Assembly (NCBI RefSeq): GCF_037975245.1
Contig: NC_092580.1
Span: forward strand, 25,402,501 to 25,466,500
Reading direction: 5' to 3'
DNA length: 64,000 bases
Origin: Apostichopus japonicus
Lineage: Eukaryota; Echinodermata; Holothuroidea; Aspidochirotida; Stichopodidae
A model generated the notes under the pieces. It did no database searches, was not told where the DNA came from, and was given only the letters and a program-made list of their open reading frames with translations. Within the stretch, counting starts at the first letter, position 1. Each line of letters begins with the position of its first letter. A program made the translations under genes and the position numbers. This document shows positions 970 to 60,760 of the stretch, one piece after another.

Positions 970-1024
970 ATGACGAGTATTCTGACCTTATTCGTGGCTC
1001 TTTCATTATCAAGACCCGGAAGTT
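970..1024 (+). CDS. Gene A exon: signal peptide
   Basis: Met, then a hydrophobic run (ILTLFVALSLS). Ends phase 1 at a gtaagt donor. The same exon type starts genes B, C and D. Confidence 0.8.
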
Positions 1025-4000
1025 GTAAGTGTGCAATGCACCGTATTGTCCCTCAGGCCGGTAGATTATAACAACTCATATTGTAGCTATCGTTGGTATT
1101 TGATAATTGGATATAGTTAACAACTCGTAAATAGATTGTTTATTGGGTAGTTGTATAATTTACATTTTGAAAAGTAAAAACTATTTCCTTTATATATGGA
1201 ATATAATATGATAATCACTACCGTTACATATTTTGGAGTGCAATTGAAACTATTTCGGCGTGTATATTTCATAAATTGTTGCAGTTTTCCGAATTGCCTA
1301 AAAAGGTACCTATCTATATGTAAGTGCATGTCAGAACTTACCTTGTGCAAAAAGAAAGATTTATATACTCGTAAGCACCACACAGCACGCACTAAAACAA
1401 TCATATTTTTTTATGAACATTCCAGGTTTAATAGAGATGACAATCACACAAGGGGAAGATGTTGCTTTAAACTGCTGTTTTAAGAACAGTTCAGAAAACA
1501 AAGCTGTATGGTGGTTTAAGAATGAAATAATACTTGCAGACGGGTATTGCCCATCTGAGGTCGGATATAAAAATGTCATGTGTAATCAGACAAATGGAGC
1601 CGAAACCTACTTGTACATTAAAGGCTTCAAGTCTACCAATGCAGGAAGTTACAACTGCGCCATTGGAAATGAGTCCGCTGAATACAATTTGCTCTTGAAA
1701 GGTAAAAAGAACAGCTATTGTTTGAATCTTCTAGCGTTTACGAGTTACATGTAATGCAACTCGGACTTTTTGAACAGCAAAGTACATTCGAGTATGTCCG
1801 CTTCATTCACTTAAACATATCTAGTATTCTTGATTATTGATATTGATATTATTGATGAATGCTTACTATTTGTTTATGTAATAATATGTTACTCATGAGC
1901 TCTCCCTTCCTCCTCCTCCTCCTCCCTAGAAATTTCCTTTGATATATTCTACATGGGTAAAGAGATCAACGCGACTCTACAGTTGAACCAATCAGATATG
2001 ACAGAACTTCAGTGCTACACTGACAAAATGGCGCCCGGTGATACGTATGCGTGGAGCATTAACGGCTTACAAACTTTCCAAGGAGTGAAGAAGTCGAATT
2101 TTTCTGTAGACGAGCGTGGTGTTGTCGAGGGTTCTATATTAACATATGATGGCCAAGAAAGAGTTAGCAACATCACTTGCCTTGTTGGGAATATGTCAAG
2201 ATCTGTGACCATAATTGTTGAGATAAATGTCACTGACTTCGGTAATTGTTAATCATCAATCCACATATAATTCAAGGACGTATGATGCATGAGGCGGTTG
2301 AAAGGAATTGGTTAATATTAAACAATTGTTCGTGCAAACATGAGCGTCATTGTGCAATACGACTCCTCATTAATGTAAATGCCATTTAAGCACGTATAAC
2401 TCTCGCGTGGATAGATGATTGCTTAAAAAGGACACTTGATTAACTTGTGCCCAGCAATCATAACAATATTATAATATTCTTTTAATGTATTTAGTATAGC
2501 CTTATTGCGTAACAGTATCAATTAATATAAGTGGTGCATTATATGGAAAAAATACTGTATGTTAATATCTATTATAAATGTAAATTGCTTTTGTTTTTCG
2601 AAGTGAATGAAAACAACCAGACCATCTCTAAGGACGATACCGGAACACCACTTCTTGACATAGGAACGATTCACCATCTATTATATGGAATCGGTGGTTT
2701 AATAGTATTTGTACTGACTACTTTGGTTTGCAGGAAGATTAAAAGTAAGTAAAAGGTCAGCAACTGCTCTCTTCGGCTGGCAACAATTAACACCTTTCAA
2801 TGAATCGTTGAAGAAACAATCAGTTCCATAGGAGCATCATAACTATTAATGTAGCAATTGAACATGTACAGTCTTAGTATTTATCTGATTAATACAAGTA
2901 ACATATAAGTAATTCCAAACATGTACTCTCCTTGACATAGCTATAACTGTCAAGTTTTTAACTACTCATCGACTAACATGAATTATAAGGGTATATTAAA
3001 TAGGTTACTACATGTATTATTTATATATTCAATTTTCGAAGGTCTAATCAGTCCTTTTCTACATTATTGCGTAATAGTAATACACTCCTGGCGATGTCTT
3101 TTTGTACCAGAGTTTTAGCCCATGCGCAAATATCTAGTATATTACTTTACTTAGGTTGTATCACGGACTACGTGTTTTATACAATCACAACTGTGTGAGT
3201 AGCACCATTACATTACATAATGTCTGCCTCCCTTGCTATCTCAGTTAAATCTTTGTCCATATTGAGTTCATGTGTTGGCGTAACTGAGAAGACTTCATTT
3301 GTTTGTATTTGTCAATATAGTTGGCAGAAGATGCGCCCAAGTCATATTTTGAAATAACGTGTGTTGACAGAACATGCAATTCTCTGCAAATTGGCCGAAA
3401 TTTTGTTTTACAAAGTAGATGGTCATAATTTTGTTCTAATTATCTACACTATGGTACAAAAGACACAAGGGTAGAGGAATGTTCGAAATTTTAATGGAAT
3501 GCATAACGAGTTAAGTTCGGTAGCATATGCTAACTAAGTTTTGTTGTAGGATCATATGACAAACAAAAACAAGATTGCTTTTTTGTTTTGACAGATTCAT
3601 TGCCAAGTCGAGGTAAAGCGAAAGTGTAAGTTGATGATTAAGTAAGAAGCAACAAATGATTTCCTTATTGCAGATAGCTCAACGCTTTTCAAAATGAAAG
3701 TTGCGACACAATAATTTAATCTGTATAGCATTTAGGGCGTTATTACCTACACTCCGGATTCATTTCTACATGCCCTTTGCAACCGATTGATATTTGCCCG
3801 TCTTTCTTAATATAATCAATCACGATAAGGATTAGATGTATTCATACTGATCATAAAGTATAACTTTCAATGAAGTCGTATGAGTGCTATTTGCAGCAAT
3901 GCAACAAAAGTTTCAGTATTTTCACTTTTGGAATGCCGACCTACCACTTTCAACTCTCTCTGTAATTTCTGATTGTGTCACCCTGTCATACCTTACCGTA

Positions 4001-7000
4001 CTAATGTAGAATATCCCTTCACTTAATGTATTTATATCCCGATTGGTATTTAATTAAAAATGTTGTCGTTTTAGTCCATAAGAATGTAACAATAACTACC
4101 GTATGTCTCAACAATGGAACAAGCCATCATACTGAGAATTGTATCAAAATGTTTCGATGCAATCATAAGAAATTCAAACCTGCTCATTTAATTTTCTACA
4201 CAATTGTGCTGATGAAAGGGAAGATTTCCGCCTTCCCGAATTATGTCGACTGCAAAAAAATTATATTCGTCGCTTTCAAAGTTTATTTAAAACAGTAGCT
4301 TATAACTTAACAACAGTAACCGCCGGCAGACTACGGCGATACGTTTGTATATTTATTTTATTTTTCAGATAAATCAAGAAGCACTAAACATGTTTTCGGA
4401 TACTTAATATACTATATATATATTATATTCGTAAAATGAAAACTTGAATGTATGTGCAATGTACTCTTATCGCTATCAACCCAGCTCCCATGCACATAAA
4501 TCAATGTTGCTTTTATTGTTTTTACGCTTTGCATCAAACATACCAAATCAGTTGTATTTACAGTTCAGTTTTAATGATTATTTGCCAGGCATCCTGTGTG
4601 TGATGTCTTATACACAGAACTAAATGAGTTTTAACATACTTGATCTTATTCTCATGGACAGGATTAATATTGCTCCCTAAACCTTGTTAGATACGGCATA
4701 TGTCGATTATTTTCATTTTCCTACGTAGTCTAAAACACATTATAAAGTGTCCAGTGACGTAGTTTATGTTTCAGTACATTGGTTACAAGGTGAGAGTTGT
4801 GGCCGTTCAGTCTCATCCTTCTAAACCGTACCTGACGCAAGTCGTAAATGTAACACTAAAGAGCGTACATCATGATAAATATGAAATTGACTAATGCAAT
4901 TAATAAGAAACAAAATTACAGCCTATTTTGTTATGAAATAACATAATACGAAGCTAGGCATGTTAGTACGCATTCAATGATTCGTTGAAACTCATGACGA
5001 GGGGTTGTGATCAGTTGGCTTAAAATTTCGGACTATTACTTAAAGGCGCTTGGACATTGAGGTTCCCGGTTTATTGAACCGCCTGAACCACATATTGGTG
5101 GTGTCAAATACATTACTGTGTAAAAAAACAGCCTTACATATTTGTGTATAAACAAGTAAGAGTTCGAACAGCTCTATGTTATTAGCTGTGATAGCCCGTT
5201 AGTCGCCATTTGCAGCGTTTGTGGTAAAATAAAATACCAGAGTTCACAAAGAATTGAACACCAAGATATTTGACAGAGCAAGTTAGGAGGTATATTTTTC
5301 TTTGAAAATAATATTGCAATGAATTACACTATTGGAAATGCACATTTAAAACCACCATTTATTATATACCTAAGTCAGGAATGTATAGTTAAATGTGCGT
5401 GTATGCTTCTTTGGGTGTTCTTTTTTTCTTCTACATTTCATATTGTAGCTTAAAGTAATTATGCATGTTATATTCTTTAATAGTTCATGCAAATAACGTG
5501 TTCCTTTCAGAAACTCTACTTATCATGTCAACAATTCGAGAATAGAGGATATAGAAGAAATTAGCAGCTTCTATGGATCTCTACCAGGTATATATTTAAT
5601 GCTTGCAGTTACTTGTTATTAAATTAATACTATATATAATTATATTATATAACGTTTTTATTTTTGCACACAACGATCGTTTTGTTCAATAGATATATCT
5701 CAGCGACAAATAATTACCTTCCAAAATTTTGTAAGTATGCACTCAACGGGATACTCAATTGTTTTTCTTTCTTTAGATTTTGAAAACGTCCTGATCAATG
5801 AAGAACCAGTTTCTCGCGTTTTTGCGAGGGAAAATCTTTGCTTTAACAGGGATCTACCGTCTTCGTTGATTTTATTGTATTGGAGCGGAACTTTAACGTA
5901 CAGTAGAAGCAAGATGCATGATGTCATGATATCGTATGTTGAAGGTAGGATCAGCCTCGAAGAGTGCGAACCAGAGATAAACGGTGTCTTAATATAAGTA
6001 TAATGGTGTGATAATTCAATCTTTATATGTTACGATGACATTTTAATATATATATCATTTTCGAACTGAGTACATTATGCATTCAAGTGGTTGATGGTCT
6101 AATTAACATTGGGAGATTATGTTGTGTCTGAGCAGACATGTAGTAAAACAGAGTTCTATCAAGTATTTATATGATATGTTATCACATACTTCTCAAATAC
6201 AGAAGCTTACCTAGGCTCATTTCCTTTCTCAAAAGGTGACGCACCGGTAGAGGCAAAACGATTGTGGAAAACATGCAGCGATTCTCGTCTGTCGATTTCA
6301 GAACATCCAAATTTGTTAAAGACAATTGGGTATTGTAAATGTGATGGTGAGTGTAATGAACATACGCGTCATGATAAATGGTTATTACTTAATTCTTATT
6401 TTTCGTATTACTTATGGTAATTCCATTCTTTAACAAATTAATAGTTTATACCATAAATTTAAGTTAATGAAATCTCTGAGCAACATTTTATATAATTACC
6501 TACATACATACATTAATAAACGATAGTTATAGTATCCTTGGAGGGGTTAATAATTGTTTTTCATTTTGTTATCAATTTTTTACACCATTTAAGGCTTATA
6601 CCATGATAACTTTTGACGTCCTTTATCAAAATTCTTCTTTTCTAAATGATTATTAACAGGACTTCTTTTCATAATTAATGACTACTTTGAAATGAACACA
6701 TTGGATAACTTCTTGGTATCTGAGTACAGTAATTGGGAAACCAGTGGCGATGATTATACTGGATATGCCCTCGACATAATTGATGGGATGGAATACCTTG
6801 ATTCTGTAGCAGTGAGTCGAAATTAATATTTAAATAGTTTATAAGAACAATCATGAAATATGAAGCAATTGTTAAGACGGACCGAATGTAAACATGGAGT
6901 GGAAAACTTATTTCAGTAGTTTAAAAACTTATGTTTACAGTTCTACATATATGTGTAAAAGTAATTGGACGGACGTTTCGATCCCCGTCTCTCCATTTTC

Positions 7001-10000
7001 TCATAGCTCTCATCCACCCTTTTTTCTCCACACCTTTCTGTCTTTGTCTTTCTCTAGGTTTTCCTTACCTCCTTCCCTTAATCCTCTCTTTGTCCCTCTA
7101 TTGTTTATCTCCTAACCTCTCCTCTTCCTCTGTTGGCTTCTTTCATTATTCTCTCCATCCCTTGTCTACTATTCCCCTTATTTTGATATATTTGTGTTCA
7201 CCATGCTCATTAACCTGTCTGTATTCTGTGCGTGTTTTGTCCCTTCTGTTAGTTTACGTTATTTGTCATTTAGCCTCTGTAGATCTCGCTAGGATTGAAA
7301 CGTCAGGCCAACTTACTTTTACACATTCTGTAACACAGGCTCTCAAGTGGATAAGCAGTTTGCTAACAGTTGTATTTGATTCTGAGTTCTACTTATCAAT
7401 TGTTATTTACAATTAGCTTGGTTGGTGGTGTGGTGGGCGTTGAATAAACAAAAGTGAGTGATAACGATAACATTTATAGACAATCACTTAAAATATCATA
7501 ATCATATTAATTATGTAAACAATTATGATCAAAGTTGAAATGTTTTAAAATATCACGCAATATTACAAATTATGTGGATAGTTCGTATAACAGTGAAGTG
7601 ACGGTTGTTACCTCTTGCTTTGTTGAAAGTGTGCTCATCCAGGTCTTTGTGCTAAACGTATCGTTGTCAATCATCTCGGTATTTGCAAACTGTACGACTT
7701 TTGTCCTAGTAAGCAGGCGAGAGACTTCCTGGAAATTTTCTTGAAGGAGGTAAGCTAATAAATGGTACAACAATTGAAAAGCTTAAACAAGATTGCTTGA
7801 ACGCTGATATCATATTTGTCTTTTTAATTTCTCACATTCTTTATTAAATAATGTTTATATCTGACATCATATATGAGTCCTGAGAATTACCCCCATTCTA
7901 TGCTGCAAAAGAACAGCAAAGCTAACACTACCTATATATTAACGTAGTTTACTTTCAACAAGTGTTCCTAATACCACTTAAAATAAGATGAAAGAACAAG
8001 GATAAAAAAGACCCTTTAATGGTTCATCTGGACTTCATCATGTGAATGGTTAGTTTTGAGCAATTGATAATAACAATGTATGTATTTCACCGAATAGTTA
8101 CCCTCAAATAACAGTATTATCGAATGAAAGCCACAACAAATTTTGTCTTGGAAGATTTCTTATGTTATGTTATAAATTGGCTTATAATGTGCGCATGTGC
8201 GAAGGTATATGATTGTTTTCACCACATTTTACACTTCATAGGATAGGGAGTTTGAATACAGATTGGCGCCTGAAATTCCACATTGTGATAATTATCCTAG
8301 CTCATGTGACGTATGGGGAGTTGGAATGACCTTGTGGGAGTTGTTTTTTGGCGGTAAGTATATGTTTGTACATCGTTTACGTATTTTTTGCCATAAGTTA
8401 ATTTTTAGTGAGGAAGCTGAATTCTCTTTCACTTTCGGAATATTGTCATTGTACTTACTAGCTCACTTATTAGTGTAACTTTGTAGCCTCTAAAATAATG
8501 ACTAATTAATTTCAAACTTAATTACCTAAGGCCGGTTGTAAACCCTCAATATTCAGGTCAAAAATTGGCTCTACGAAACCAAAGAAAAAAGGCTCCGTTA
8601 TTGTTTTTTTGTCTGGTCAGTCTAAACCACTTTTTAGTAACGACTTTTTGTAGAAAATACAAATTACACAAAAGCAGATGCGTTTTCCTTTCTCTTTTAC
8701 ATAACTTCAAACGCATGTTTGAACAGTTATAAACTGTATATTACTTTTTCTCTTTGATAGGGCATACACAAATTTACGGAATCATTCATATGGATGGATA
8801 TGAAATGAAGAAACATTTGGATATGATTCAACAACCCCCTGAGTGTCCGGAAGAAATGTAAAACTAGTGTTTACTTTGAATTTTTGTTTTGTCTGTTTCA
8901 ATGAATCGATTCAAAACGATAATATTGAATTGAGACCTGTTTTCGATTTACTGTTCCATCAAGATTCTCTCCCCCTCCCAATACAATATCTCTCACTTAA
9001 ACTCCATATCATACTATCACCTAAGGACTAGCTTATGTACATATCATATTACAAAATATTTCATATTCGCGATTGTTATCAGTTACCTACGTTCAAGCTC
9101 AACATATATTGCATTGAAGTTTGAATTGTGTGTTTTCATTCCAGATTCACAGCTATGAAGATGTGTCTTAGCAAGGAGTGTGATGATCGTCCAACAATGA
9201 ATGAGTTGAAATATTTGACGAGAAAGAATGCAACCGTGGGAGCGCAGGTAGATATTTTGGGCTATATTTTTAAAACAGAACACAATCGCATAACTGATAA
9301 TATGCATTGAATTCTGACAAATGTACAGCTCCCTCAATCGATTATGTGGGACCAGTATTGCTAATGTATGTATTTCGAGTATATTAAATGGAGGAGAGAG
9401 TGTACATTGAGAAAACAATAGTACATAACCTGCTAACAAAGCAGGTATAAATTACTATCAACATCTTTAATCCTTGCATTGTTAACACATGAAATATTCC
9501 AATGCAGTCACTTTATTTTGATGAGTACATTGCACAGTAATATGTGATGTTAAGAACGAAGTATGTGATTATGGACGATCATAGACGATTCCCAAAAACT
9601 ATTTTGATTGTCTTACAATTGAATTTTCGAAGAGAGATCAGACATATTTGAAAAGCTAAGAGAAAGTTGCTTTAGTTAAAGGGTATTTCAGGCCAAATAG
9701 ACAATATAACGACAAACAGAAAGGAACGTTTGAAGTGTTGACCATTATGGAATACAATCACTTTGTTTTAACTGACATATTAAAATAAAACAAAAGAAAC
9801 TTCAGCATATTATATCTATCGAGATAAGTGTCGAACCCATGGGCTTTGCTCTTCTTCCCAAGTATTATATATTTATATTGGTTAATAGCAGACCTTTTTA
9901 TCCCCTTATTGATGATTGACAGTTTTAAGTTTCACGAAAATGAAAAATGACCCTCTTTATTGTAAATCAGTAGCCTATACAGGTTAATGGATTATCATCG

Positions 10001-10609
10001 TAGACTATTAAATTATCGATCAATAGGAAGAGGCTGTAACTTGTGACAAGACTAGCGAGTTATCGCATGTGTAAATACAATGAATACGTAAAGTTTCTGT
10101 TTCAAAATGTTTCATCTAAATACAAAGCCAGTGTGTATAACCGTTATTCATTGAAAGACAAAGAGTAAAGGTTGTGTTTATAGGGTAGACTAAGGGTGAA
10201 AGTTTGATATAATAATACAAATTATCATATTTGTACTTCCTTATGTGAGCAATGCTGTGAAATCTCAACTTACAACTTTCTATATATATATTCACAGAGT
10301 TTAGAGTATGTTAAATGTAATATGTATACATGTATACGATAAGTTTACCCCCCCCCCCCCCCAACGCGAAATTGATCCATTTTACATGACTGTTCCTCGA
10401 AAATATATTATTACATCACTTCTACGCTTCGTTTCCCATTTTGCGCACAGAGTTCCTTGTATATTAAAAGGAAACGAAATCCTGCCACCCAAATACAAGA
10501 AGAACATTATGTCGAAGATCCAACAGAGAAAGAAACTTATCCAGACGATCGGAGGGAAGATTACTACTCTGACGATGATGGTGATAATGTGTACGATGCT
10601 TTCGTTTGA
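970..10609 (+). CDS. Gene A: two-Ig receptor pseudokinase (14 coding exons)
   Basis: Predicted single-pass membrane receptor with a degenerate tyrosine-kinase-like domain. Coding exons: 970-1024, 1426-1701, 1930-2241, 2604-2744, 3595-3625, 5511-5587, 5777-5944, 6236-6346, 6660-6811, 7630-7749, 8242-8353, 8761-8857, 9145-9247, 10451-10609. The sum is 1914 nt, 637 aa plus stop, and all phases agree. Layout: signal peptide 1-18, Ig1 19-110, Ig2 111-214, membrane helix about 240-257, kinase-like domain about 298-585, acidic Tyr-rich tail 586-637. HRD is HPG (444-446), DFG is DFC (464-466), and no beta-3 Lys is visible. I therefore infer a pseudokinase signalling by scaffolding. The start ATG follows an acceptor at 961-962 and opens a good signal peptide. 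The exon set and phases match genes B-D, which supports the model. Ligand and name are unknown. The join 9247 to 10451 could skip an unseen tail exon. Confidence 0.8.
1426..1701 (+). CDS. Gene A exon: Ig-like domain 1
   Basis: Phase 1-1 exon. Ig hallmarks: VALNCC (strand B Cys), AVWWFKN (core Trp) and NAGSYNC (strand F, Tyr-x-Cys). An N-glycosylation sequon (NSS) lies beside the first Cys. ADG..PSEVGYKNV aligns with ADG..PSDIG.DNV of B and C. Confidence 0.85.
1930..2241 (+). CDS. Gene A exon: Ig-like domain 2
   Basis: Phase 1-1 exon with TELQCYTD, YAWSING and VSNITCLVGN, the Cys/Trp/Cys spacing of an Ig fold. Several NxS/T sequons. It follows a pyrimidine-rich acceptor at 1928-1929. Confidence 0.85.
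2604..2744 (+). CDS. Gene A exon: transmembrane segment
   Basis: Short stalk (VNENNQTISKDD), a helix rich in L/I/V/G (LLYGIGGLIVFVLTTLV), then the basic stop-transfer CRKIK. Phase 1 on both sides, with a gtaagt donor. Confidence 0.85.
3595..3625 (+). CDS. Gene A juxtamembrane mini-exon (31 nt)
   Basis: Encodes NSLPSRGKAK, the counterpart of VLSTLSR in B and FLSTISR in C. The donor gtgtaag at 3626 turns phase 1 into phase 2, as the next exon requires. An earlier donor (gtaaag) at 3613 would break the frame. Confidence 0.65.
5511..5587 (+). CDS. Gene A juxtamembrane exon
   Basis: 77 nt, phase 2 to 1, identical in length and phase to the matching B exon. Encodes NSTYHVNNSRIEDIEEISS..., open only in this frame. 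No recognised motif. Confidence 0.7.
5777..5944 (+). CDS. Gene A exon: kinase-like N-lobe
   Basis: 168 nt, phase 1-1. ENLCFNRDL...LLYWSGTLTYS replaces the glycine-rich loop region. DVMISYV stands at the beta-3 VAxK position, with Ser where Lys is expected. Aligns with B 21201-21362 and C 40881-41039. Confidence 0.8.
6236..6346 (+). CDS. Gene A exon: alpha-C/beta-4 region
   Basis: 111 nt, a length shared by all four genes. Encodes EAKRLWKTCS...SEHPNLLKTIGYC, matching the kinase motif HPNIVxxxG. Confidence 0.85.
6660..6811 (+). CDS. Gene A exon: hinge to alpha-E
   Basis: Phase 1 to 0. LLFIINDYFEMNTLDNFL is the hinge. ALDIIDGMEYLDS matches the I..GMxYL helix that precedes the catalytic loop in receptor tyrosine kinases. 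Confidence 0.85.
6950..7400. mobile_element. Foldback element copy 1 (gene A intron)
   Basis: Left end tgtgtaaaagtaattggacg and the complement of the right end (7280-7330) match each other, giving long inverted termini around gacgtttcgat. A pyrimidine-rich middle and the block gctcattaacctgtctgtat recur at 45.6 kb and, inverted, at 62.5 kb. It lies between the alpha-E and catalytic-loop exons of A. No transposase ORF seen. Confidence 0.65.
7630..7749 (+). CDS. Gene A exon: degenerate catalytic loop (HPG, DFC)
   Basis: Exactly 120 nt, phase 0-0, open in one frame. HPGLCAKRIVVN replaces HRDLAARNxLV: Arg to Pro, Asp to Gly, Asn to Arg. KLYDFC replaces KIxDFG, keeping the Asp. The metal- and proton-transfer residues are therefore mostly gone. 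Confidence 0.9.
8242..8353 (+). CDS. Gene A exon: APE and alpha-F
   Basis: 112 nt. LAPEI is a canonical APE motif. SCDVWGVGMTLWELFFGG matches the SDVWSFGxxLWE helix. This structural part is well kept although the catalytic loop is not. Confidence 0.9.
8761..8857 (+). CDS. Gene A exon: C-lobe alpha-G
   Basis: 97 nt, phase 1 to 2, the same length in all four genes. Ends QQPPECPEEM, like the PxxCP motif of tyrosine kinases. Confidence 0.8.
9145..9247 (+). CDS. Gene A exon: C-lobe end (DRPT)
   Basis: 103 nt, phase 2 to 0. FTAMKMCLSKECDDRPTMNE carries the CW..DPxxRPT motif in reduced form. Same length as the gene D exon 54164-54266. Confidence 0.85.
10347..10362 (+). repeat. Poly-C run
   Basis: About 15 consecutive C just upstream of the gene A terminal exon, inside the last intron. 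Confidence 0.8.
10451..10609 (+). CDS. Gene A terminal exon: acidic tyrosine tail
   Basis: Phase 0 exon after an acag acceptor, ending in TGA at 10607-10609. Encodes SSLYIKRKR..., then EEHYVEDPTEKETYPDD and EDYYSDDDGDNVYDAFV. The six Tyr in acidic context resemble phosphotyrosine docking sites. The end VYDAFV echoes VYDFEG at the end of B. Confidence 0.75.
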   Translation, partial: SSLYIKRKRNPATQIQEEHYVEDPTEKETYPDDRREDYYSDDDGDNVYDAFV

Positions 10610-44000: not shown

Positions 44001-46977
44001 ATTTCAGCTGAAAAACTACAACAATAGATAGTATTCCAGTGGAAAAATAAACCAGTTTTTCTTTTAATTGGACAGACTATCGATCAGCTATCGACGTACT
44101 AAAATCTCTTCTTTCTCAGAAATCTTCAAAGACAGTCTACGGTATAATGGTAAATCAAGAAATAGGAAGATACAAGTTTCTGTCCATTTATAAATTGTAA
44201 GACTACCTTATTAGACTGACAATTGAAAAGTTCCCCCGTTCTTGTTTTGCACTTTTTGTTCTCAAATAGTAGAGACTAATATAATACAGTTTGCACACAT
44301 ATAATCGAATACGTTTTTAACATACATGTGTGCTAAAACCCTTTTACAATATTAGATCGTTAACGTCGTTAGTAATTATTTTTATTGTCACACTCCCTTT
44401 TCAGAACTCTTCACAGGACGACAACGATAGGGTAGACAACCAAGAGGTCAGAAAATACCATTTCTTGTGTTTGCTAGCTGAAAAACTAAAACAATAGATC
44501 GTATTCCCAGGGACAGCTAAATCAGTTTTTCTTTTAATTGGACAGACTATCGATCAGCTATCGACATACTAAAATCTCTTCATTCTCAGAAATCTTCAAA
44601 GACAGTCTACGGCATAATGGTAAATCAAGACATAGGAAGATACAAGTTTCTGTCCATTTATAAATTGTAAGACTACCTAATTAGACTGACAATTGAAAAG
44701 TTCCCCGGTTCTCGTTTTGCACTTTTGTTCTCAAATAGTAGAGACTAATATAATACAGTTTGCACACATATAATCGAATACGTTTTTAACATACATATGT
44801 GCTAAAACCCTTTTACAATATTAGATCGTTAACGTCGTTAGTAATTATTTTTATTGTCACACTCCCTTTTCAGAACTCTTCACAGGACGACAACGATAGG
44901 GTAGACAACCAAGAGGTCAGAAAATACCATTTCTTGTGTTTGCTAGCTGAAAAACTAAAACAATAGATCGTATTCCCAGGGACAGCTAAATCAGTTTTTC
45001 TTTTAATTGGACAGACAATCGATCAGCTATCGACGTACTAAAATCTCTTTTTTCTCAGAAATCTTCAAAGACAGTCTACGGCATAATGGTTTATCAAGAA
45101 ATAGGAAGAAACAAGTTTCTGGCCATTTATAAATTGTAAGACTACCTTATTAGATAGACAATTGAAAAGTTTTCCGGTTCTTGTTTTGCCCTTTTTGTTC
45201 TAAACGTTTGGCACACATATAATGGAATACGTTTTTAAGATACATGTGTGCTTAACCTTTTTTTAAATAATAGATTGCTTTCAGGTGGCCAGCAATGATT
45301 TTTATATACACAATTCTTTTTCAGAAATCTTCACAGGACGACAACGAGAAGGGAGACAATCAAGAGGTAAGAAGATATCATTTCTTTTTTGTATTTCAGC
45401 TGAAAACTGCAACAACTAATCGTTTTCCCGGGGACAAATAAACATTTTTTTATTGTGTAAAGTGAGTTGGCTTGACGTTTCGATCCTAGCAGGATCTTCT
45501 TCAGAGGGCTAAATGTCAAGTAACGTGCAGAAAGTTTCTTTCATTCTTCTCTCCATTCCTTGTCTACTAATCCCTTACATCTTTCTCGGTGTGTTCACAA
45601 TGCTCATTAACCTGTCTGTATTCTGTGCGTGTTTTTGTTCCTTCTGTTACTGTGCGTTACTTGTCATTAGCCTATGAAGAAGATCCTGTTACTTTTACAC
45701 ATTATCTTACACAGAGTCTGAAGTGGATAAGCTGTTTGCTTATAGCTTTATTTTGATTTTCTTTAAATTGGACAAATAATCGACCAGCTATCGACGCACT
45801 AAAATCTCTTCTTTCTCAGAAATCTTGGAAGACCGGCTCCGGCTTAAAGGAAAATCAAGAGGTGGTAAGGATACAAGTTTCTGTCCACTCATAAGTTGTA
45901 TGACTTCCAAATTAGACTGTCATGTTCTTGTTTTGCCCTTTTGTTCCCAAATAGTAGAGACTAACATATTAACGTTTGAACGCTTTAACGTTGCAAGTAA
46001 TTATTGTCATCGACACATTGCTTTGCAGAACTCTTCAAAGGACGACTACGAGAAGGTAGAAATCAAAGAGGTAAGAAGATACTATTTCTTGTTTTTTATT
46101 TCAGCTGAAAAACAACAACAACAGATCGCATTCCCGAGGACAACTAAATCAGTTTCCTTTTAATTGGACACACGATCGATCAGCTATCGACGCTCTAAAT
46201 ACACTTCAGTTAACCTTTCGAATGTTTTTGTGAGACCACTATTAAACTGTTACTTTGAATGTAACATGTATCGAGGAAAGGGTTGTTATCAACTTTACAG
46301 TAAAGAAGGTATCCTTTTTTGGTACTGGTTAATACGTTGGTCAAAAAGACGTTCGTTGCGAGCTTTGTGCGCTATTATTTATTATTACCAAATAAACAAT
46401 GGTTACGCAAGTAACATCAAATATGATAACCAAACATGATATTTAGCTATGGGAACAAGCAAACTACCAATCGTTGCGTATTTCTGACACTACCGCCTGT
46501 GAAACAGCTTACGTGCTGATTTTATCGGCGAGACTTTATGCTAGTAATGAAGGTTAAGAACAGAGAAAGCATTATTTATCTGAGCAACATGTTAATGCCT
46601 AGTTATATATAGCAGAAACATTCATTACAATATTAGGGCAATTACACTTTCAGAATCTTAAATGACAGTAAAAGGGTTAGCATGTAATGTGCATCTAGTA
46701 TGAAAAAAAAAGAATACCAGCAATCTTATATAAGCAGACTCATCGTTGATAAACGAAAGTCATTCATCTATGTTTTCAATTTAGTGACAAAATGTGTAAA
46801 ACATTCGCATGTGTCGTCTACTTCTGTTTCTGTTGCTAGAAGCCACCCCTTGGGACAACTGAAGACGGTGATACTCTCTCTAAAAATCAATCAAAAGTCA
46901 ATAAAGTTGAAGCTATTATGCAAGGTGGACTTACAGATGACTCATATGAAGACATGAATGTTCCAATTAATAAGTGA
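35006..46977 (+). CDS. Gene C: two-Ig receptor pseudokinase with a duplicated tail
   Basis: Core exons: 35006-35063, 36065-36349, 36927-37217, 37637-37747, 40178-40196, 40586-40647, 40881-41039, 41338-41448, 41680-41846, 42797-42916, 43015-43126, 43228-43324, 43697-43820 (1716 nt, 572 codons, in frame). Tail: 42-nt exons at 43933, 44405, 44874, 45325 and 46029 and the last exon 46840-46977, giving about 687 aa. Optional exons: 44120-44149, 44590-44619, 45059-45088, 45820-45861. Signal peptide 1-19, Ig1 20-114, Ig2 115-211, membrane helix within 212-248, kinase-like domain about 276-572. HPG at 424-426, CFC at 444-446, and Ser in place of the beta-3 Lys. A receptor pseudokinase is inferred. 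The tail is built from repeated frame-neutral cassettes, so isoforms could differ in docking-motif number. ATG could be 35006 or 35009. Confidence 0.8.
35234..35819. mobile_element. hAT-like MITE 2 (gene C intron)
   Basis: 586 bp. The ends cagtggcggagc and, inverted, cagtgacggagc form a 12-bp terminal repeat with one mismatch. 8-bp target duplication cttaagag at 35226-35233 and 35820-35827. Non-coding. Different terminal sequence from MITE 1. Confidence 0.82.
36065..36349 (+). CDS. Gene C exon: Ig-like domain 1
   Basis: Phase 1-1. IELICSC, PVWRFNG, NEGNYSC. Very similar to B over the whole exon. Confidence 0.88.
36927..37217 (+). CDS. Gene C exon: Ig-like domain 2
   Basis: 291 nt. YEFNCYSDQL, FIWKVNN, VSCSLGDATSVI. 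Phase 1-1. Confidence 0.88.
37637..37747 (+). CDS. Gene C exon: transmembrane segment
   Basis: SDHEDKGGTF stalk, AAPIIITIACIAILAGTY helix, FWRHKNE. 111 nt, gtaagt donor. Confidence 0.88.
37750..40170. other. Gene C TM-to-microexon intron
   Basis: 2.4 kb without convincing coding signal. A perfect 8-bp stem hairpin gtggaagt/acttccac lies at about 38242-38266. A 60-codon - strand ORF (39802-39984) is unexplained. Confidence 0.5.
40178..40196 (+). CDS. Gene C juxtamembrane microexon (19 nt)
   Basis: Encodes FLSTISR across borders, phase 1 to 2. gtgaga donor. Orthologous in position to B 20564-20582. Confidence 0.72.
40290..40470 (+). repeat. Degenerate GTA/GTG trinucleotide tract
   Basis: Low-complexity gtagtagta / gtggtggta stretch just after the microexon. 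The apparent ORFs through it are repeat artefacts. Confidence 0.8.
40586..40647 (+). CDS. Gene C juxtamembrane exon
   Basis: 62 nt, phase 2 to 1. NILSNPQHQQEKNIETGLLP. Shorter and less basic than in B. Confidence 0.7.
40881..41039 (+). CDS. Gene C exon: kinase-like N-lobe
   Basis: IDLRSFERQNICFRGNISIS..., IIQWSGKLEIG, DVIISYIQ. Ser replaces the beta-3 Lys. Confidence 0.86.
41338..41448 (+). CDS. Gene C exon: alpha-C/beta-4 region
   Basis: 111 nt. EAKELWKICSEAKLTM, PEHPNILKTLGHSTYE. Confidence 0.88.
41680..41846 (+). CDS. Gene C exon: hinge to alpha-E
   Basis: 167 nt, phase 1 to 0. CLIQDYYGMTSLDFCLATEY, then GVIEGMAYLDSQQ. Confidence 0.88.
42797..42916 (+). CDS. Gene C exon: degenerate catalytic loop (HPG, CFC)
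   Basis: 120 nt, phase 0-0. CYHPGLCSRRIMVNSFGICK, then LYCFCPK. Same substitutions as B. Followed directly by a short activation segment without Tyr. Confidence 0.9.
43015..43126 (+). CDS. Gene C exon: PPE and alpha-F
   Basis: 112 nt. WALPPEC, CSDVWSIGFTLCEIFLGG. The Trp of LWE is Cys. Confidence 0.9.
43228..43324 (+). CDS. Gene C exon: C-lobe alpha-G
   Basis: 97 nt, phase 1 to 2. MESLRKYVLLENNEMTKHLE, ending LQCPEKL. Confidence 0.86.
43697..43820 (+). CDS. Gene C exon: C-lobe end (DRPT)
   Basis: WETLKSCLSIGQQDRPTIDA, then VKTLHLQKSPKIEYLKIKKQ. The 3' half is the source of the repeated fragments downstream (44.07-46.2 kb). Confidence 0.86.
43933..43974 (+). CDS. Gene C tail cassette 1
   Basis: 42 nt, phase 0-0, gtaaga donor. 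KSSQDDYETVVNQE; YETV is a possible phosphotyrosine site. Confidence 0.8.
44120..44149 (+). CDS. Gene C optional exon KSSKTVYGIM, copy 1
   Basis: Derived from the DRPT exon. tttctcag acceptor, atg/gtaaat donor, 30 nt, phase 0. The older donor after VNQE is mutated to ataggaaga. YGIM is a YxxM motif. May be unused. Confidence 0.4.
44405..44446 (+). CDS. Gene C tail cassette 2
   Basis: 42 nt, NSSQDDNDRVDNQE. The Tyr is replaced by Asn. The donor gtcaga is weaker than in cassette 1. Confidence 0.65.
44590..44619 (+). CDS. Gene C optional exon KSSKTVYGIM, copy 2
   Basis: 30 nt, identical peptide to copy 1, gtaaat donor. Confidence 0.38.
44874..44915 (+). CDS. Gene C tail cassette 3
   Basis: 42 nt, identical to cassette 2 including the gtcaga donor. 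Confidence 0.65.
45059..45088 (+). CDS. Gene C optional exon KSSKTVYGIM, copy 3
   Basis: 30 nt with the same peptide, but the donor is gtttat, so it is the least likely copy to be spliced in. Confidence 0.25.
45325..45366 (+). CDS. Gene C tail cassette 4
   Basis: 42 nt, KSSQDDNEKGDNQE, good gtaaga donor. Confidence 0.7.
45452..45755. mobile_element. Foldback element copy 2 (gene C tail array)
   Basis: Starts gtaaagtgagttggcttgac and contains gacgtttcgatcctagcag. The inverted counterpart ends near gcctatgaagaagatcctg. It separates two parts of an array unit that are contiguous in the other units, so the insertion limits can be read directly. Confidence 0.75.
45820..45861 (+). CDS. Gene C optional exon KSWKTGSGLKENQE
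   Basis: 42 nt or 45 nt (second donor gtaagg at 45865). A diverged relative of the KSSKTVYGIM exon that kept an end near NQE. It has lost the Tyr. Confidence 0.45.
46029..46070 (+). CDS. Gene C tail cassette 5
   Basis: 42 nt, NSSKDDYEKVEIKE, gtaaga donor. YEKV retains the Tyr. Confidence 0.75.
46840..46977 (+). CDS. Gene C terminal exon
   Basis: Acceptor tgttgctag, phase 0. KPPLGTTEDGDTLSKNQ..., GGLTDDSYEDMNVPINK, stop TGA 46975-46977. YEDM fits YxxM, the binding consensus of PI3-kinase p85 SH2 domains. Confidence 0.8.
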   Translation, partial: KPPLGTTEDGDTLSKNQSKVNKVEAIMQGGLTDDSYEDMNVPINK

Positions 46978-53684: not shown

Positions 53685-53759
53685 TTAAAAGTTCACTTCG
53701 TTGTAGTCGTTTGGTTCTAACACGATGTAACTTGTATCTGCTGGTTGCGTCATATCTAC
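53685..53759 (-). CDS. Gene D terminal exon: tyrosine tail
   Basis: [20 protein letters not shown], then EVNF and TAA at 53687-53685. TSYIVL resembles TxYxxL/V switch motifs, and DYNEV is a second Tyr. Phase 0 agrees with the preceding exon. Confidence 0.78.
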   Translation of the reverse strand, partial: VDMTQPADTSYIVLEPNDYNEVNF

Positions 53760-56700
53760 CTGAGAATGCAACGTGTAGAGGACGTAGTTATATAATGTTC
53801 TTGAAAGGAAATATTGTCAAAGACCAAAACAATCGAGAACGATGGAACTGATACTCATCGTTGCAATTATTAAATTCCCCTGAAAAAAATTAATCAACCA
53901 CTTAAGAAATTCCTAAATCTAAGAATAAGTATACCATTTTTCAAAAGGCGTACTTGGTCAACGGTGACTTTGAAAATGGAGCAACATTACAGATTTTTTT
54001 GTTTCAAATATTGTTCTTATTTCTATTAAAACAAATCAATATGTATTACATTTCAAATAATCTCAGATTTGCTAAGACGATTGACTCAATACTAAAGTGG
54101 AGTAGTGATGAAACTGTTAGTCAATGACAGTTTGTTTTTCTGTAAATTAGTTTTCATTAATACCTTTGCAATACCCTCATATAGTTCCTCGATTTTGTTG
54201 CGGACCTTCATGATGGTCGGTCTCTGTCGAGAGTTCTTGTGCCATGTAGAAAGCATCAGGTTGTATCTGAAAATAGAACGTTATTGTAAGTAATACATAT
54301 TTAACTTGAATGGAACTTATTGCTAAGTTCTGAATGTGTTTAAGCTACGTAGTTTCAGAGATTAAAAAGTAATAGACCACATATGCGATATGATGTTTTT
54401 TTCAGCGATGGGGACTATTACGAAATAGCAATGGAGTTACAACCTTTGTTACCTTTATGTGTGTCTTCTTACTTACATACAACATATACTAGAGTTTCAT
54501 CGTATCGTGCAGATTGTACAACGCAACTTCCAATACATCGGATAAGCATCACAAAGCTTAAACTCGCAAATAATGCAAGCATTTGTTAAATTACACCAGT
54601 GCTCAATGCTATAAATATGGATTTATGAAAATAAGTATTTTGTTCATACATGGCTCCAGGACAACAGTCTGGTTGTTCCAAGCATTTCAATTGCCTAATG
54701 TGTCCTTCTATTTCCTTGGCGGTATTCGTGTGGTATGGAGCTTCTCCTACGAAATAAAAAAAAAAGGCTAGTTATTTTCAGCACAATTATATGTGTCACC
54801 AACTGGCCATGCCAGACTTAACAGTAAATTTTGCTGAAATGTGTTCTACAACTTAAATTTTACATTGATAAAGTGTGTCTACAACTATAACTTACAACCC
54901 CCACCCTAAAAATCAAGAAAGTGAAGTATATGAATCAGCAACTGTATTCTCTTGAACGTCATTTCCAATTAATATGAAATTGGTAGTTTGAAATAATTAC
55001 CGAATGAAAATATTTCCCAGAGAAGTATCCCGAAGGACCAAATGTCAGACGAGATGCCGTACTCGCTCAGAAAAATTGTTTCGGGAGGCAACCACGCTAT
55101 GGGTGGATTTTTCTGGAAAGCGATAAAGAATAATCAGTTTTACAAAGGATATGTCGCACTTCATTTTAAAATAATATTATGCTTCAAAACATGTCATGAC
55201 TCTGCAATTGTTACAACTTAGATACATCGAGATTAGAATGACTCACACTTTCTGTCAGGTTGGTGATTCTATCCTCACTAAGATCAATCGGGAAAAAGTC
55301 GAAGAGTTTTGGCCTCATCTTATCCCCCAAAAGGACTTTTCTAGCGGCCAGTGCAGGATGACAAAACTGTGAACAGAACAAAGTACCCTGGTTGTTGCAG
55401 AATTAACATCGTAGTACTTTGCGATTTCCGCTTCACAACCAGAGGAAGAGGAAAATTCCTTTTCTAAATAAGCATGTTTGAAATAGGCAATATTTACATT
55501 AGCATGTAACTTATATTGCTCCCAGGAGTTGAAATGTGCACACATTTAATACAATTTTCATTATATATAGTTCCTTGCTTCAACGTTACATTACTGCCCT
55601 AGCCCCAGTGTTATACACTGCCATAGTTTCAATGTAAAAGTATTTTCAGCTACCTGATTACAATGCAGGAAAGCTAGGGCATCTGCAATTTCCTTGGAAA
55701 ACACAATGGGATGTTGCAAACCGCTGTCATTGCCTTTATCGGTGCTATTCAATTCTCTTTGTGGCTGATAGCTTGTTTGCAGTAAATCTCGCAAGTTTCC
55801 ATTCGCGATATATTCTTGATAGATAAAGTAAGGCACTGTTGGAAGAGGTAAGAATCATTTTTTAACTGAGTAAACACCTTCGAAATTTGCTTCTTGAATA
55901 GTCATATTTGAGAAAATAGTGTGATATATTGTCTGGAGATCAATTAACATTTATTAAAATATAATACGTTTTAAAGTTTTTTTTAAAGTATCATACAGTA
56001 CATGTTCTTAAATATATCCTTAATTGGGATTTAAATTGATTCCAGTGGTTTGAAATTGCATTAACTTACCTTCATCCAGGGAGGACCCAATATAGTTCAC
56101 GATGTTTTGGTGGATTTCAAGTTGACGTAGAGCAGATGCGAGCTTTAAAAAGTTATAACCGTCTTTCATTTTTGCCTTTTCTGTCAAATGAATTAGTTAA
56201 TTATTTTTAATCGACTAAATCTCTAATTCAACAGTGTTTAATTAAAGAGAAGGATAAATTAGTTAAGGCAAACCTTCTTTAAACTTAATGAATACCATTA
56301 TCAATTGTTCTCTAAACCATGTTCGTTCAAAGTTTATCTTCAAACAGCTGCTTTTTCTAACATTAATTTTATGTGATATATATGATATTTATTTTATGTT
56401 GCACTTACGAATTCTTTCGTTGCATGTTGATCTTTGATATTTTATATGAAGTGACTTAATTTACTTAATTTATGCTTATAGAAACAAAAGGAATGCATGT
56501 CTAATTCACATCATGTAACGTAAACAATGTAAATAAAATTTGCAGTCTACATTTTGTTACCTGAGACTGTCTTAGCGACGATAAATTCATTTTCTGGATG
56601 ATCCTTACGACTCGCTTTCCAATAAGAAAAAACACTACCAGCGGGAAATAGCGAAATTAGTTCCACGGAGAGTCTAAAACTTGCTGTCTCCGTTTCTTCA

Positions 56701-59700
56701 ATCTTTGATTCTTTTTTGGGTGCAACGGACGGATTTTTTGGGGTTGCTGATGGTGGCGAGATGAAAAGGTAACACGGTTGCTTCACAAAACTTGAAATGT
56801 ATTATATCATGATTCCATGCAATACTAGAGTGACAAATATAATTTTCCGTTCAAGATAATCTAAAGGAATGATTTCAAGTTCTACACAACATCTATAACT
56901 GTTTACGAACATCAATTATGAAGTAAGCATATAAAACAAAAGTGATATTAGCTAATAACACCTCGGTGGTAATGCGTTGTACTTTACATGACAACTATAT
57001 AGACAACATATCTAAAACAATATTAAGATATATGAGATGGAATTATTTCATGTTAAGAGAAGCATAGCTACAAACCTTCGGGGTGATCCTTGTTGCTAAG
57101 CGTTTTGGTCTTCACTGTGCTAGACGGCAAAAACGACACAATGTTACAGAACATTTAAAACTAACTTTTATTAATTTTAAATGATAAAATGCGACTGATG
57201 GTTTATTCAATTTAAGAACTTGTACACTGCCTCGAAAGATAAATAATAGTTCATGACGTTTTACGTAACATGATTTGTTCTTCTTTAGGACACAATGATA
57301 CTTATTTTGTTAAAATTTGAAGTTTGTTACAAACTCACAATAATAAGTTATAAAATTTGCCCTACCATGCATAAAACGCAGTCGCCACGGTATCTGTAAA
57401 CATACGAGTAAAAAATACATGAATACGCATGATGAGAATGTTTCAACAGCGTATGTGAAATATTTTTGAGTTGTAACGTTTAATAGCAGGAGTGAGCAAG
57501 AGAATGTAAGTTATATATCTCGCTCTCTGTATCTTTTTTTATCGTGCACTATTTACTAGTCCGTAATAAGATAGACGTTTTATAATATGTTACTTTGTCG
57601 TGATAAAGAATGTCCTGACTAGTGCATCATATATGTGTCAAAAGTAAATATGACGTAATACACCTTTCCCAACTCTTCCGTCCAACGTCGCCAGTCATCA
57701 TTCATCTGTCCATTATTTACGGTCAACTGGATACGAAATTGGTATTTTGATTTATCAGTTAGCAATAGGAAATCTAATATTCTGTGTTAAAAGAATAAAT
57801 AGTACCTTGTTTTCGTTTCTTGTACACGAAACATGCAAGAAGGCACGTTACGCAAAGGAATAAAGTAGCCAGCCCGACAAACATTATTATAGTGGTGGTG
57901 TCTGTGAAATAAAAATTTGAGATAACGGTAAGTTCGAAATGGGGATATACTCTTTACATCACAAACAGTGAATTACATAACCTTAGATGTAACGTCAGGG
58001 CCAGCGACTCTTAATTTGTTCACGAAAGTTTTAGTTAGCTGTTGATAACAATTAGCTTTCCGGATACCAAATAATGAAAATGAAATGAGATAACAATCTT
58101 TCATATATTCTCTTCATGCTTTAATTTTCACTGCCTGGATGGGATAAATCATCCATATACCAATTGGAATTAAAAACATGAGGCAAATCGAGAGGTCACG
58201 TAATAATTACACTGGATATTATGATGTGTTTTCGACTCACCATTAATCTTAATATCCAGTGTAGCGTGTTGCATCAAGGAGGAAGAAGATAGATTGCTTG
58301 AACAGGAAATGTGGATTCTTCCCTTTACTGTAACATTCAGGTGACTTTCGTAATCCAGTAATATCGGGTTATGAACATTAGGCTTGTTTAATGTCCCAGT
58401 ATCGATATATTGGTCGATGCTTCCAGACTTCCAAAGCAATCTAGCTTCTGGCCGAGAACCAAACGCCACACATTTGAGAACGACCACTTCTCCGTGATAT
58501 GTCATTATCTCTCCAGAAACGTTGATATTGTTTATTTGGATTTTTACGTCTGGTATTGCTGTAACGAGAAAACTTCATTATAAATATAATTGGAATGTTC
58601 GTCGGGGAAAACGTAAACAATGAGTACATTTTAGCTGCGGTTCTTAAGTTATACAATAAGTGCAACATGACAACTATCACATGCATAATTACAATCAATG
58701 GTGATACCAACTATCATTACTTCTAATCTCCTAGTTACATAGAATATGCACTAGTTTAACCAATTTACCATATATAGGAAGTTTGTTTCCTGCAACAATA
58801 GTATCATCGTTCTCGCCAGAGTAATTTCTTTCACATTTCATGAATATTTCAATTGCATTCTCTGGGAATTCCATAGCGTATGTGATCGATCCAGTATCGG
58901 TGCGGAACGTTCGATTAGAAACGTCACTTAAACCGTCTTCGTGTACATATCTTGTCATGGTTGAAAGTTCCACAATTTCGCTTTTCTTGCAGTTTTTCTT
59001 TTGAGTACATGAAATCGTGTACATTGTTCCAGTCGTTATAAAGCTCAGGGCCTCTATGTCTTTGCCATTCAGGGAAAACTTGGATTGGCAATCTGAAATT
59101 GATTAGGGGAAATTCTGTTTCAATGATTTATTAATTAAGATCTTTAGATCAAGATATGACAAGAGAAACTCTCATTATGCCGTTTTTTACACCTCATATC
59201 TTGCAGTTTATGTAAGAGATTGTCAAATTTACAACATAACGTGAAAGTTGCTTTGAGCATAGAATGTCAAGTTAGGGAATGAAAGAAAATCATTTCTATA
59301 CGGTACTGTATATAATTACAATACAATGCATTTCTTCTCTGGTCTATATATTTAACTGTAATTTTACATTGTTAACACATTTTATTAAATTGTAATATAA
59401 CGATAACTTGACTTGGTTACATCTAAACTATCAACGTGGAAACATTGCGTAATATATGGTTTTCTTAATTTGTTTCTTAATAATAATTTTTTCCTAATAG
59501 TTTTCGGTCAGAATATTGTATGTTAATCATGTGCCTTAAAATATTAAGATATCTTTGTAGGTCATACCATCTAATTCAAGAAAATGTTCTTTAAGTACTA
59601 TTCGATTCACAAGACAAGCGTATGTGCCTTCATTTTGTTGCTGAAACTCATCAATCAGTAACTCTGTCACCGATGAGTTCACTGATTTAACGATGACATT

Positions 59701-60760
59701 TTCAGTTCCGGGTTGAGTGTCTTTTGAGATCAGTGTCTTATTCTTAAACTTCCAAACAGGCGAATTATTGTCCAATGAGGTGCTGTGACAGTTCAACTTT
59801 ATCGAATCTCCTTTGGTTACGAGTTCACTTTGCGACTCTGAACAGACAGAAACTGAAAAACGTGGAAGAAAGGTTTGTTAATATTTGCAATATATTACTT
59901 TGCTTCTTTATTTTGTATGCATAGAAAGCATACCCAAAGTAATTATTTTCCAGCTCTCTCGTTTCGATGCAGTCATTTGGGTTGATTATTCTATGAGCGG
60001 TAAATAATGTTTTATTAACATAAGGTATTGTCTTCTGCCGTTACACGAGGTAATACAAAAGGCTATATATAGGCAGGTTGCATGTATTAGTAAGGTTACC
60101 AGAGATAAAACAAGGAATGTAAAACTACCAGACAATACTCTGTAGTTAATGTGTAAAGTAAAACGTGTGACCAATTAACGTAAGCACTGTAAAATGGCCA
60201 CATCAGAAAGATGTTTTCGAATCCAATTTCATTACCAGTGCCTAGTTGGTGAATGAGAAAGGACCAAATGTGAACGAAATGTTTTCTTTGTTACATTATG
60301 AGCATTATTTACATTAGCCCTTACACGTAAATTATCTAATAATTGGGATTCAAAGACGCTGATATTAATGACTTGGGATTGTAGTTCAAAAAATACTATT
60401 GACGATCATTTGATACCTTTTCATATCTCAGGTTTTCAAGGTCAGTCAGTTTAAGATTGTTAATATTGGAATATGCCTATCGTTTCGGATACTAATGCTT
60501 TTATTATATTAAGATATTGGAGATAACTCTATTTGATGTAAAGAATTCAGTCAGTTGGATTCACGGGATGACCACATGAATTTAACCTTAAGAAAGATAT
60601 AATAAAATGATCACTTTGTTTTCCACTGATAAAAGATATGTTCTCCAACGATCACGTCGTCGGTGAAGGAAGGCCCCTTTTGTTGTAATCAATATCTTAA
60701 TATATTACCTGTGCCGATCGCGGTGAGCAGGAAAACATTGTGCAGTAAGGCCATGTTCAT
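53685..60760 (-). CDS. Gene D: three-Ig receptor pseudokinase (15 coding exons)
   Basis: Exons in transcript order: 60760-60709, 59852-59568, 59092-58769, 58558-58241, 57901-57806, 57393-57366, 57119-57076, 56746-56561, 56180-56070, 55835-55654, 55366-55247, 55112-55001, 54746-54650, 54266-54164, 53759-53685. The sum is 2133 nt, 710 aa plus stop, in frame. Signal peptide 1-17, three Ig-like domains (18-326), membrane helix within 327-358, kinase-like domain about 390-686, tail 687-710. It keeps the beta-3 Lys (IVAKT), but the catalytic loop is HPALAARK (545-552) and the DFG site is DFF (565-567). It is the least degenerate member of the cluster. Kinase exon lengths 111, 120, 112, 97 and 103 match genes A-C. 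ATP binding might persist; phosphotransfer is unlikely. Ligand unknown. Confidence 0.82.
54164..54266 (-). CDS. Gene D exon: C-lobe end (QRPT)
   Basis: 103 nt. [16 protein letters not shown], closing the kinase fold. Phase 2 to 0. Confidence 0.86.
54650..54746 (-). CDS. Gene D exon: C-lobe alpha-G
   Basis: 97 nt. [31 protein letters not shown] and P..CP motifs present. Confidence 0.87.
55001..55112 (-). CDS. Gene D exon: PPE and alpha-F
   Basis: 112 nt. [27 protein letters not shown], a near-canonical receptor-kinase motif. Confidence 0.9.
55247..55366 (-). CDS. Gene D exon: degenerate catalytic loop (HPA, DFF)
   Basis: 120 nt, phase 0-0. [20 protein letters not shown], then LFDFFPID. Arg to Pro and Asp to Ala in HRD, Asn to Lys, Gly to Phe in DFG. 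AAR is retained, linking HPG of A-C to the usual LAARN. Confidence 0.9.
55654..55835 (-). CDS. Gene D exon: hinge to alpha-E
   Basis: 182 nt, phase 1 to 0. [19 protein letters not shown] is a typical tyrosine-kinase hinge. [14 protein letters not shown] helix. A 20-odd-residue insert rich in N, D and G (kinase insert) lies between. Confidence 0.88.
56070..56180 (-). CDS. Gene D exon: alpha-C/beta-4 region
   Basis: 111 nt. [33 protein letters not shown] replaces HPNIV. Confidence 0.87.
56561..56746 (-). CDS. Gene D exon: kinase-like N-lobe with beta-3 Lys
   Basis: 186 nt. [20 protein letters not shown] stands for the glycine loop, with one Gly. FIVAKTVS carries the VAxK-type lysine lost in A-C. 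Confidence 0.85.
57076..57119 (-). CDS. Gene D juxtamembrane exon
   Basis: 44 nt, phase 2 to 1. [15 protein letters not shown]. Confidence 0.65.
57366..57393 (-). CDS. Gene D juxtamembrane microexon (28 nt)
   Basis: DTVATAFYA. tttacag acceptor, gtaggg donor, phase 1 to 2. Position matches the microexons of A-C. Confidence 0.65.
57806..57901 (-). CDS. Gene D exon: transmembrane segment
   Basis: [20 protein letters not shown] helix, then CFVYKKRKQ. Phase 1-1. Confidence 0.87.
58241..58558 (-). CDS. Gene D exon: Ig-like domain 3
   Basis: 318 nt, phase 1-1. [20 protein letters not shown] and GRIHISCSS. No counterpart in A-C, so a domain was gained here or lost there. Confidence 0.85.
58769..59092 (-). 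CDS. Gene D exon: Ig-like domain 2
   Basis: 324 nt, phase 1-1. [11 protein letters not shown] and [11 protein letters not shown] supply the Cys pair. No clear core Trp. Confidence 0.82.
59568..59852 (-). CDS. Gene D exon: Ig-like domain 1
   Basis: 285 nt, phase 1-1. [24 protein letters not shown]. Same length as gene C Ig1. Confidence 0.87.
60551..60650. repeat. Gene D upstream repeat, partial copy 0
   Basis: Block ttggattcacgggatgacca, and the preceding ttattatattaagatattgg (60498-), recur at 61.9, 62.3 and 62.9 kb. Lies in the first intron region of D. Confidence 0.6.
60709..60760 (-). CDS. Gene D exon: signal peptide
   Basis: [17 protein letters not shown], phase 1 donor gtaata. The acceptor taacag lies directly before the ATG, so an upstream 5' UTR exon is needed. 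Confidence 0.8.

Follow-up and report, generated by a model that had tools for sequence, protein, structure and literature searches.

Why should an animal carry, side by side, several receptors whose kinase domains look unable to catalyse? The question is raised by a 64,000-nucleotide (nt) window of the genome of the sea cucumber Apostichopus japonicus (contig NC_092580.1, here C20:25402501-25466500), which is the whole stretch analysed. In it lie four receptor genes, A to D, all of which splice in frame through GT-AG sites without an internal stop. An earlier note, made from the letters of this DNA, had proposed four in-frame models of 14 or more exons with a common receptor architecture, four conserved exon lengths and a dead kinase-like domain, and each of these points was borne out. 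We consider it very nearly certain that the genes belong to a selected family of dead receptors.

Four receptor genes and their catalytic exons

Exons were chosen by likeness between copies and by GT-AG sites, with reading frames compared across the window. The resulting models, with immunoglobulin (Ig)-type, membrane and kinase exons, are as follows.

970..10609, + strand: gene A, 14 exons
970-1024, 1426-1701 (Ig1), 1930-2241 (Ig2), 2604-2744 (membrane), + strand: gene A exons 1-4
3595-3625, 5511-5587, 5777-5944, 6236-6346, 6660-6811, + strand: gene A exons 5-9
7630-7749, 8242-8353, 8761-8857, 9145-9247, 10451-10609, + strand: gene A exons 10-14
7630..7749, + strand: gene A catalytic-loop exon, 120 nt, HPG for HRD and DFC for DFG
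18110..25936, + strand: gene B, 14 exons
18480-18767, 18991-19281, + strand: gene B Ig-type exons
20145-20255 (membrane), 21201-24540 (kinase exons), 25820-25936 (last exon), + strand: further gene B exons
22617..22736, + strand: gene B catalytic-loop exon, 120 nt, HPG for HRD and CFC for DFG
35006..46977, + strand: gene C, 17 exons in the model
36065-36349, 36927-37217 (Ig-type), 37637-37747 (membrane), + strand: gene C exons
40881-43820 (kinase exons), 43933-46977 (tail exons), + strand: gene C exons
42797..42916, + strand: gene C catalytic-loop exon, 120 nt, HPG for HRD and CFC for DFG
43867..45201, + strand: 469-bp tandem array of 2.8 copies, multiplying the Tyr-tail exons of gene C
53685..60760, - strand: gene D, 14 exons
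59568-59852, 58769-59092, 58241-58558, - strand: gene D Ig-type exons
57806-57901 (membrane), 56746-54164 (kinase exons), - strand: gene D exons
55247..55366, - strand: gene D catalytic-loop exon, 120 nt, HPA for HRD and DFF for DFG
53685..53759, - strand: gene D last exon, holding TSYIVL, whose counterpart SSYVVIEPNEY is kept in the relative P0093

All four genes share one order: a signal-peptide exon, Ig-type exons, a membrane exon, small juxtamembrane exons, tyrosine-kinase exons and a Tyr-bearing tail. Signal peptides and membrane helices were called by eye, also from the structural model of P0003. The Ig-type exons are bounded by phase 1 introns and number two each in A, B and C and three in D. 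The juxtamembrane exons measure 31 and 77 nt in A, 19 and 77 in B, 19 and 62 in C, and 39 in D. The kinase exons measure 159-186, 111, 152-182, 120, 112, 97 and 103-124 nt, those of 111, 120, 112 and 97 nt being identical in length in all four genes. The Pfam model PK_Tyr_Ser-Thr was matched in every gene (E 2.9e-28 to 4.5e-50). Ig models scored above the Pfam cut-off in A (Ig_3) and D (ig, Ig_3, I-set) only, the Ig matches of B and C falling under it.

Joining of the exons by chance was rejected, since B and C agree with annotated A. japonicus proteins: B against P0088 and C against P0087 showed no difference at aligned residues, and the two proteins hold a few junction and tail residues beyond our models. 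P0088 is the gene B model except for three extra residues at one donor, and P0087 uses more tail exons than our gene C. When splicing was tested at five paralogous loci (14 exons), the expected length was the sole best choice in 10, joint best in two (L036 exon 8, L033 exon 10) and surpassed by another length in two (L033 exon 12, L034 exon 10). The relative P0010, of 689 residues, joins Ig, membrane, juxtamembrane and kinase exons on a contig of 2177 nt, too short for introns, and is therefore a spliced sequence. Gene A is modelled from the letters of the window alone, with no annotated counterpart retrieved and its small exon 3595-3625 picked by frame; the juxtamembrane join of gene D is uncertain, as protein P0001 has a different peptide there.

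Catalytic exons read across the genome gave a consistent result. None of 62 keeps the Asp of HRD and none of 63 keeps the Gly of DFG, which makes the members of the family pseudokinases. Pro stands at the HRD Arg in 60 of 62 and the DFG Asp is retained in 58 of 63, so that the replacement is shared and maintained; the Asn downstream of HRD is also replaced, by Lys in 38 of 39. In gene D aligned with IGF1R, the position of the helix-C Glu is Leu. Three active receptor tyrosine kinase (RTK) loci (L078, L079 and L080), read likewise, show HRD and DFG. The 63 exons are the sum of 40, 5, 13 (of 16 places), the four window genes and the P0006 gene described below. L088 was left out of the HRD count only, L095 and L096 were dropped because the fetched piece held no catalytic exon, and L091 (C12:21.96 Mb, HRN and GFS) was dropped as another kinase. 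The first 40 came from a dead query and thus carry a sampling bias, though the same search also returned active kinases. From these residues, the kinase fold of the family should not transfer phosphate.

Extent, relatives and selection

The earlier note had taken the family to be locally expanded. A cluster is indeed present and, in the 264 kb searched around the window, continues upstream, but "local" proved too small, as seven contigs were found to carry related kinase exons, at no fewer than about 104 places in all. Some 10 kb upstream of the window lies the P0006 gene, with a fifth complete set of kinase exons; its catalytic exon reads HPA and DFW and is omitted from the annotated protein P0006. 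The P0007 gene probably accounts for further kinase exons some 110 kb upstream (C20:25.292-25.294 Mb). The 100 kb downstream yielded one weak partial match only (16.7 bits).

The genome was searched with the gene D kinase and with an exon pair of P0009, the best 140 and best 150 candidates being scored, so that the figure of about 104 is a lower bound. The 112-nt exon was found at 101 or more distinct places by coordinate lists compiled by hand: 64 on C12, 21 on C16, 6 on C1, 4 on C20 and 2 each on C7, C11 and C21. Subtracting two active RTKs and L091 leaves 98, to which three places with the catalytic exon only and genes A, B and C were added to give 104; matches at C12:1.536, C12:7.792 and C3:16.365 Mb stand outside this count. 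These are places rather than proven intact genes, and near-identical pairs may include assembly duplicates. Sixty-one of the 98 family places are on C12, the contig that also carries the active RTK pair.

Among the matches listed in three protein searches, members were found in A. japonicus and in Holothuria leucospilota (P0005, P0008), together with P0010, P0093 and P0111. Those matches include no member from sea urchins or sea stars, which is no proof of absence. The non-members inspected (P0011, P0012, P0014, P0015, P0016, P0021, P0094, P0095, P0096 and P0101) have the usual or nearly usual catalytic motif. Since A. japonicus belongs to Stichopodidae and H. leucospilota to Holothuriidae, the dead state predates the split of these two families and the inactivation is old. 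In trees built with a small reference set of retrieved sequences, the family forms one side of a supported branch (97/93, 13 rows against 15; 100/99, 15 rows against 16) and is a family of its own, with all members on that side. Neither tree includes the partial rows P0010 and P0002a, and the second also lacks the STYK1 rows; within the family, genes A-C group together on a long branch. The family, which has expanded greatly and consists of single-pass receptors, has to date been recognised in holothurians only.

Between B and C, nonsynonymous (dN) and synonymous (dS) divergence by the NG86 method was 0.217 and 0.827 in the kinase exons (dN/dS 0.26) and 0.094 and 0.764 in the catalytic exon (dN/dS 0.12). 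For this one gene pair the ratios show purifying selection, which argues against decay. In the Ig exons of the same pair, dN and dS were 0.133 and 0.356 (Ig1) and 0.206 and 0.430 (Ig2). At synonymous sites the Ig exons (0.36, 0.43) have thus diverged less than the kinase exons (0.83), which suggests that Ig exons have been exchanged between these neighbours.

Gene D was compared with the A. japonicus protein P0001. Differences numbered 7 of 95 residues in Ig1, 6 of 108 in Ig2 and 1 of 106 in Ig3, with 0 of 32 in the membrane exon, 2 of 175 in kinase exons 8-11 and 0 of 24 in the last exon. In this one protein pair Ig1 and Ig2 together differ at 13 of 203 positions against 3 of 397 in the rest (Fisher p 1.1e-4). 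This excess is the sole hint that bears on the earlier note's reading of the receptors as immune-type or growth-factor-type, which stands as a conjecture. The count omits the signal-peptide exon (2 of 17), the juxtamembrane exon and the start of exon 7 (two residues), as well as exons 12-13, in which the gene models disagree; the 260-kb contig from which P0001 comes may hold errors.

Comparison with known receptors

By descent the genes belong to the RTK superfamily: signal peptide, ectodomain, one membrane helix and tyrosine-kinase domain are present, and the catalytic HRD Asp and DFG Gly are absent. A kinase fold without key catalytic residues makes them receptor tyrosine pseudokinases. The earlier note could match them to no named family, and they fit none of those tested here. 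In human KIT and PDGFR the C-lobe exons measure 123, 112, 100 and 106 nt; against these lengths of Class III/V RTKs, A-D have 120, 112, 97 and 103-124 nt, the same split pattern with lengths off by 3, which neither places them in that class nor keeps them out of it. RTKs of that class (PDGFR/VEGFR type) have five or seven Ig domains and a long kinase insert. Genes A-D, with two or three Ig-type exons and an exon 9 of 152-182 nt, do not agree with this. An FGFR origin was also rejected, as the FGFR-like gene of A. japonicus on C5 splits its kinase exons differently (123, then 209). The kinase domain of the P0003 model is mostly confident and has its best PDB matches among FGFR and Eph kinases (E about 1e-20), a match that alone is no evidence of kinship.

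A closer likeness was found in the same genome. Two active tandem RTKs at C12:22.446 and 22.460 Mb (C12:22.446-22.462; L078, L080, L081) have exons of 123 and 112 nt, followed in the first gene, the only one read there, by 97 and 100 nt. These are the splits of the family's 120, 112, 97 and 103-124 nt, so the exon lengths show the family's layout to be the same as that of an active RTK type of its own genome. Unlike the family, the C12 pair, compared by kinase exons only, keeps HRD and DFG. A tree holding the family and this pair together was not rejected (approximately unbiased test, AU p 0.527), which is no proof of kinship. The best PDB matches of the pair were an EGFR construct, then RET and FGFR, and do not assign it to an RTK class. 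Three loci taken as possible VEGFR or FGFR references (L029, L030, L031) look, with names given by eye, like ABL, EPH and SRC genes, and L032 looks like another kinase.

Sea cucumber relatives labelled Cad96Ca, Ror or MuSK in databases have a tyrosine-kinase domain in common with the family. Membership in ROR, MuSK or Cad96Ca was rejected, as a Pfam search of A-D found no Frizzled, Kringle, ephrin-binding or cadherin domain. A Ser-phosphopeptide of a "Cad96Ca-like" protein in the accessible part of PMC6037860 has no match among the 111 retrieved proteins and the four genes, and in the accessible text of PMC12784826 and PMC9854957 the name Cad96Ca is merely listed. Discussion of receptor pseudokinases mostly concerns single genes, with eight in human, as far as the accessible portion of PMC13259870 goes. 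The sea cucumber family would be like these in having a kinase fold without phosphotransfer, and unlike them in occupying at least some 104 places in one genome. It resembles the KIN-16 family (OLD-1/FLOR-1) of C. elegans, a lineage-specific RTK family with a pseudokinase member; according to PMC10523662, FLOR-1 has HRA for HRD and is needed with active OLD-1 in an immune response, dependent on its own tyrosines. The KIN-16 family, according to the same paper, keeps active members, whereas none of the 62 read here looks active, and homology between the two is seen no closer than the kinase fold.

Possible modes of action, and other features nearby

The receptors may signal in spite of their dead kinase. 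The Ig domains would bind a ligand or another cell, the dead kinase would pair with an active one, and this partner would phosphorylate the tail tyrosines, which might then recruit SH2 proteins. Candidate partners are the active RTK pair at C12:22.45 Mb or a cytoplasmic kinase of Src/Abl type, so that many receptors may feed few active kinases. This whole mechanism, of Ig recognition and a dead kinase whose active partner phosphorylates the tail, has in our judgement an even chance of being right. In its favour are the gene D tail motif kept in P0093, the active RTKs of this genome whose exons are split alike, and the precedent of FLOR-1. It is possible, though less likely than not, that the family is a germline-encoded repertoire for recognition, made up of some hundred Ig-type receptors, dead before two holothurian families split, with diversified outermost Ig domains and sharing a handful of active kinases. 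If so, it would be an invertebrate receptor system built on pseudokinases, and perhaps serve recognition in an animal that has no adaptive immunity of the vertebrate type. With some hundred related places, apparently constrained although every copy read is dead, the genome would allow the question of what a kinase fold does without catalysis to be addressed. No published account of the family was found in the open literature searched, subscription papers being outside the search.

Several points weigh against the pairing mechanism. The beta-3 Lys, present in 8 of 14 aligned members, is kept in D and lost in A-C, and the N-lobe of the gene B model is poor (block pLDDT 28-71), its C-lobe being fair (62-91); for these two reasons the A-C subgroup may behave differently from the rest of the family. 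The tails of A, B, C and D have no one motif in common. Skipping of kinase exons, which the earlier note had named as a sign against its reading, was partly seen: in three annotated models (P0006, P0089 and P0091) the catalytic exon is left out without loss of frame.

The dead receptors might instead be decoys or negative regulators that damp active RTKs, through ligand binding or through dimerisation with them, while their tails recruit phosphatases. The motifs TSYIVL of gene D and SSYVVI of P0093 resemble immunoreceptor tyrosine-based inhibitory motifs (ITIMs), so that an inhibitory output is possible too, and by exon layout the dead kinases are next of kin to active RTKs. A hundred or so copies are, however, many for damping few RTKs, and the tails of A, B and C have no ITIM-like motif; we think this unlikely. 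Ordinary developmental growth-factor co-receptors without a recognition role have a precedent in ErbB3, a known dead receptor acting through heterodimers (accessible part of PMC13259870). Family size and the outer Ig variation of gene D fit recognition better, neither being decisive, and such co-receptors seem to us distinctly improbable.

The copies could also be drifting pseudogenes, the relics of a transposed RTK, as the skipped catalytic exon, the long branch of A-C and the many places seen as single exons only would allow. In-frame genes of 14-17 exons, dN/dS below 1, a replacement common to 60 of 62 places and members in two holothurian families make this very doubtful. Hardly tenable is a changed enzyme that binds nucleotide and performs another reaction, for which the DFG Asp in 58 of 63 exons and the beta-3 Lys in 8 of 14 members might speak, as the HRD Asp is gone in 62 of 62, the downstream Asn is replaced (Lys in 38 of 39) and the beta-3 Lys is lost in A-C and others.

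Some minor features were seen in and around the window. The end of the annotated protein P0006 reads window positions 918-1480 in a frame other than that of gene A and looks like a fused or read-through model. A different tyrosine-kinase exon (Pfam positions about 116-187) recurs in many like copies at C17:13.17-13.61, C18:8.7-14.3, C19:8.8-9.1 and C21:8.45-13.48 Mb, which may be a second kinase expansion. The remaining features of the window are as follows.

11048-12226: TATC microsatellite, almost perfect, with some 295 copies, a short way past gene A
19457-19540, - strand: copy resembling U2 spliceosomal RNA (RF00004, 53.3 bits) inside a gene B intron, perhaps a retrocopy
25998-26366 and 26653-27469: similar segments repeated between B and C, possibly a mobile element
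29087-29470, - strand: weak reverse-transcriptase fragment (RVT_1, E 3.1e-5, under the Pfam cut-off)

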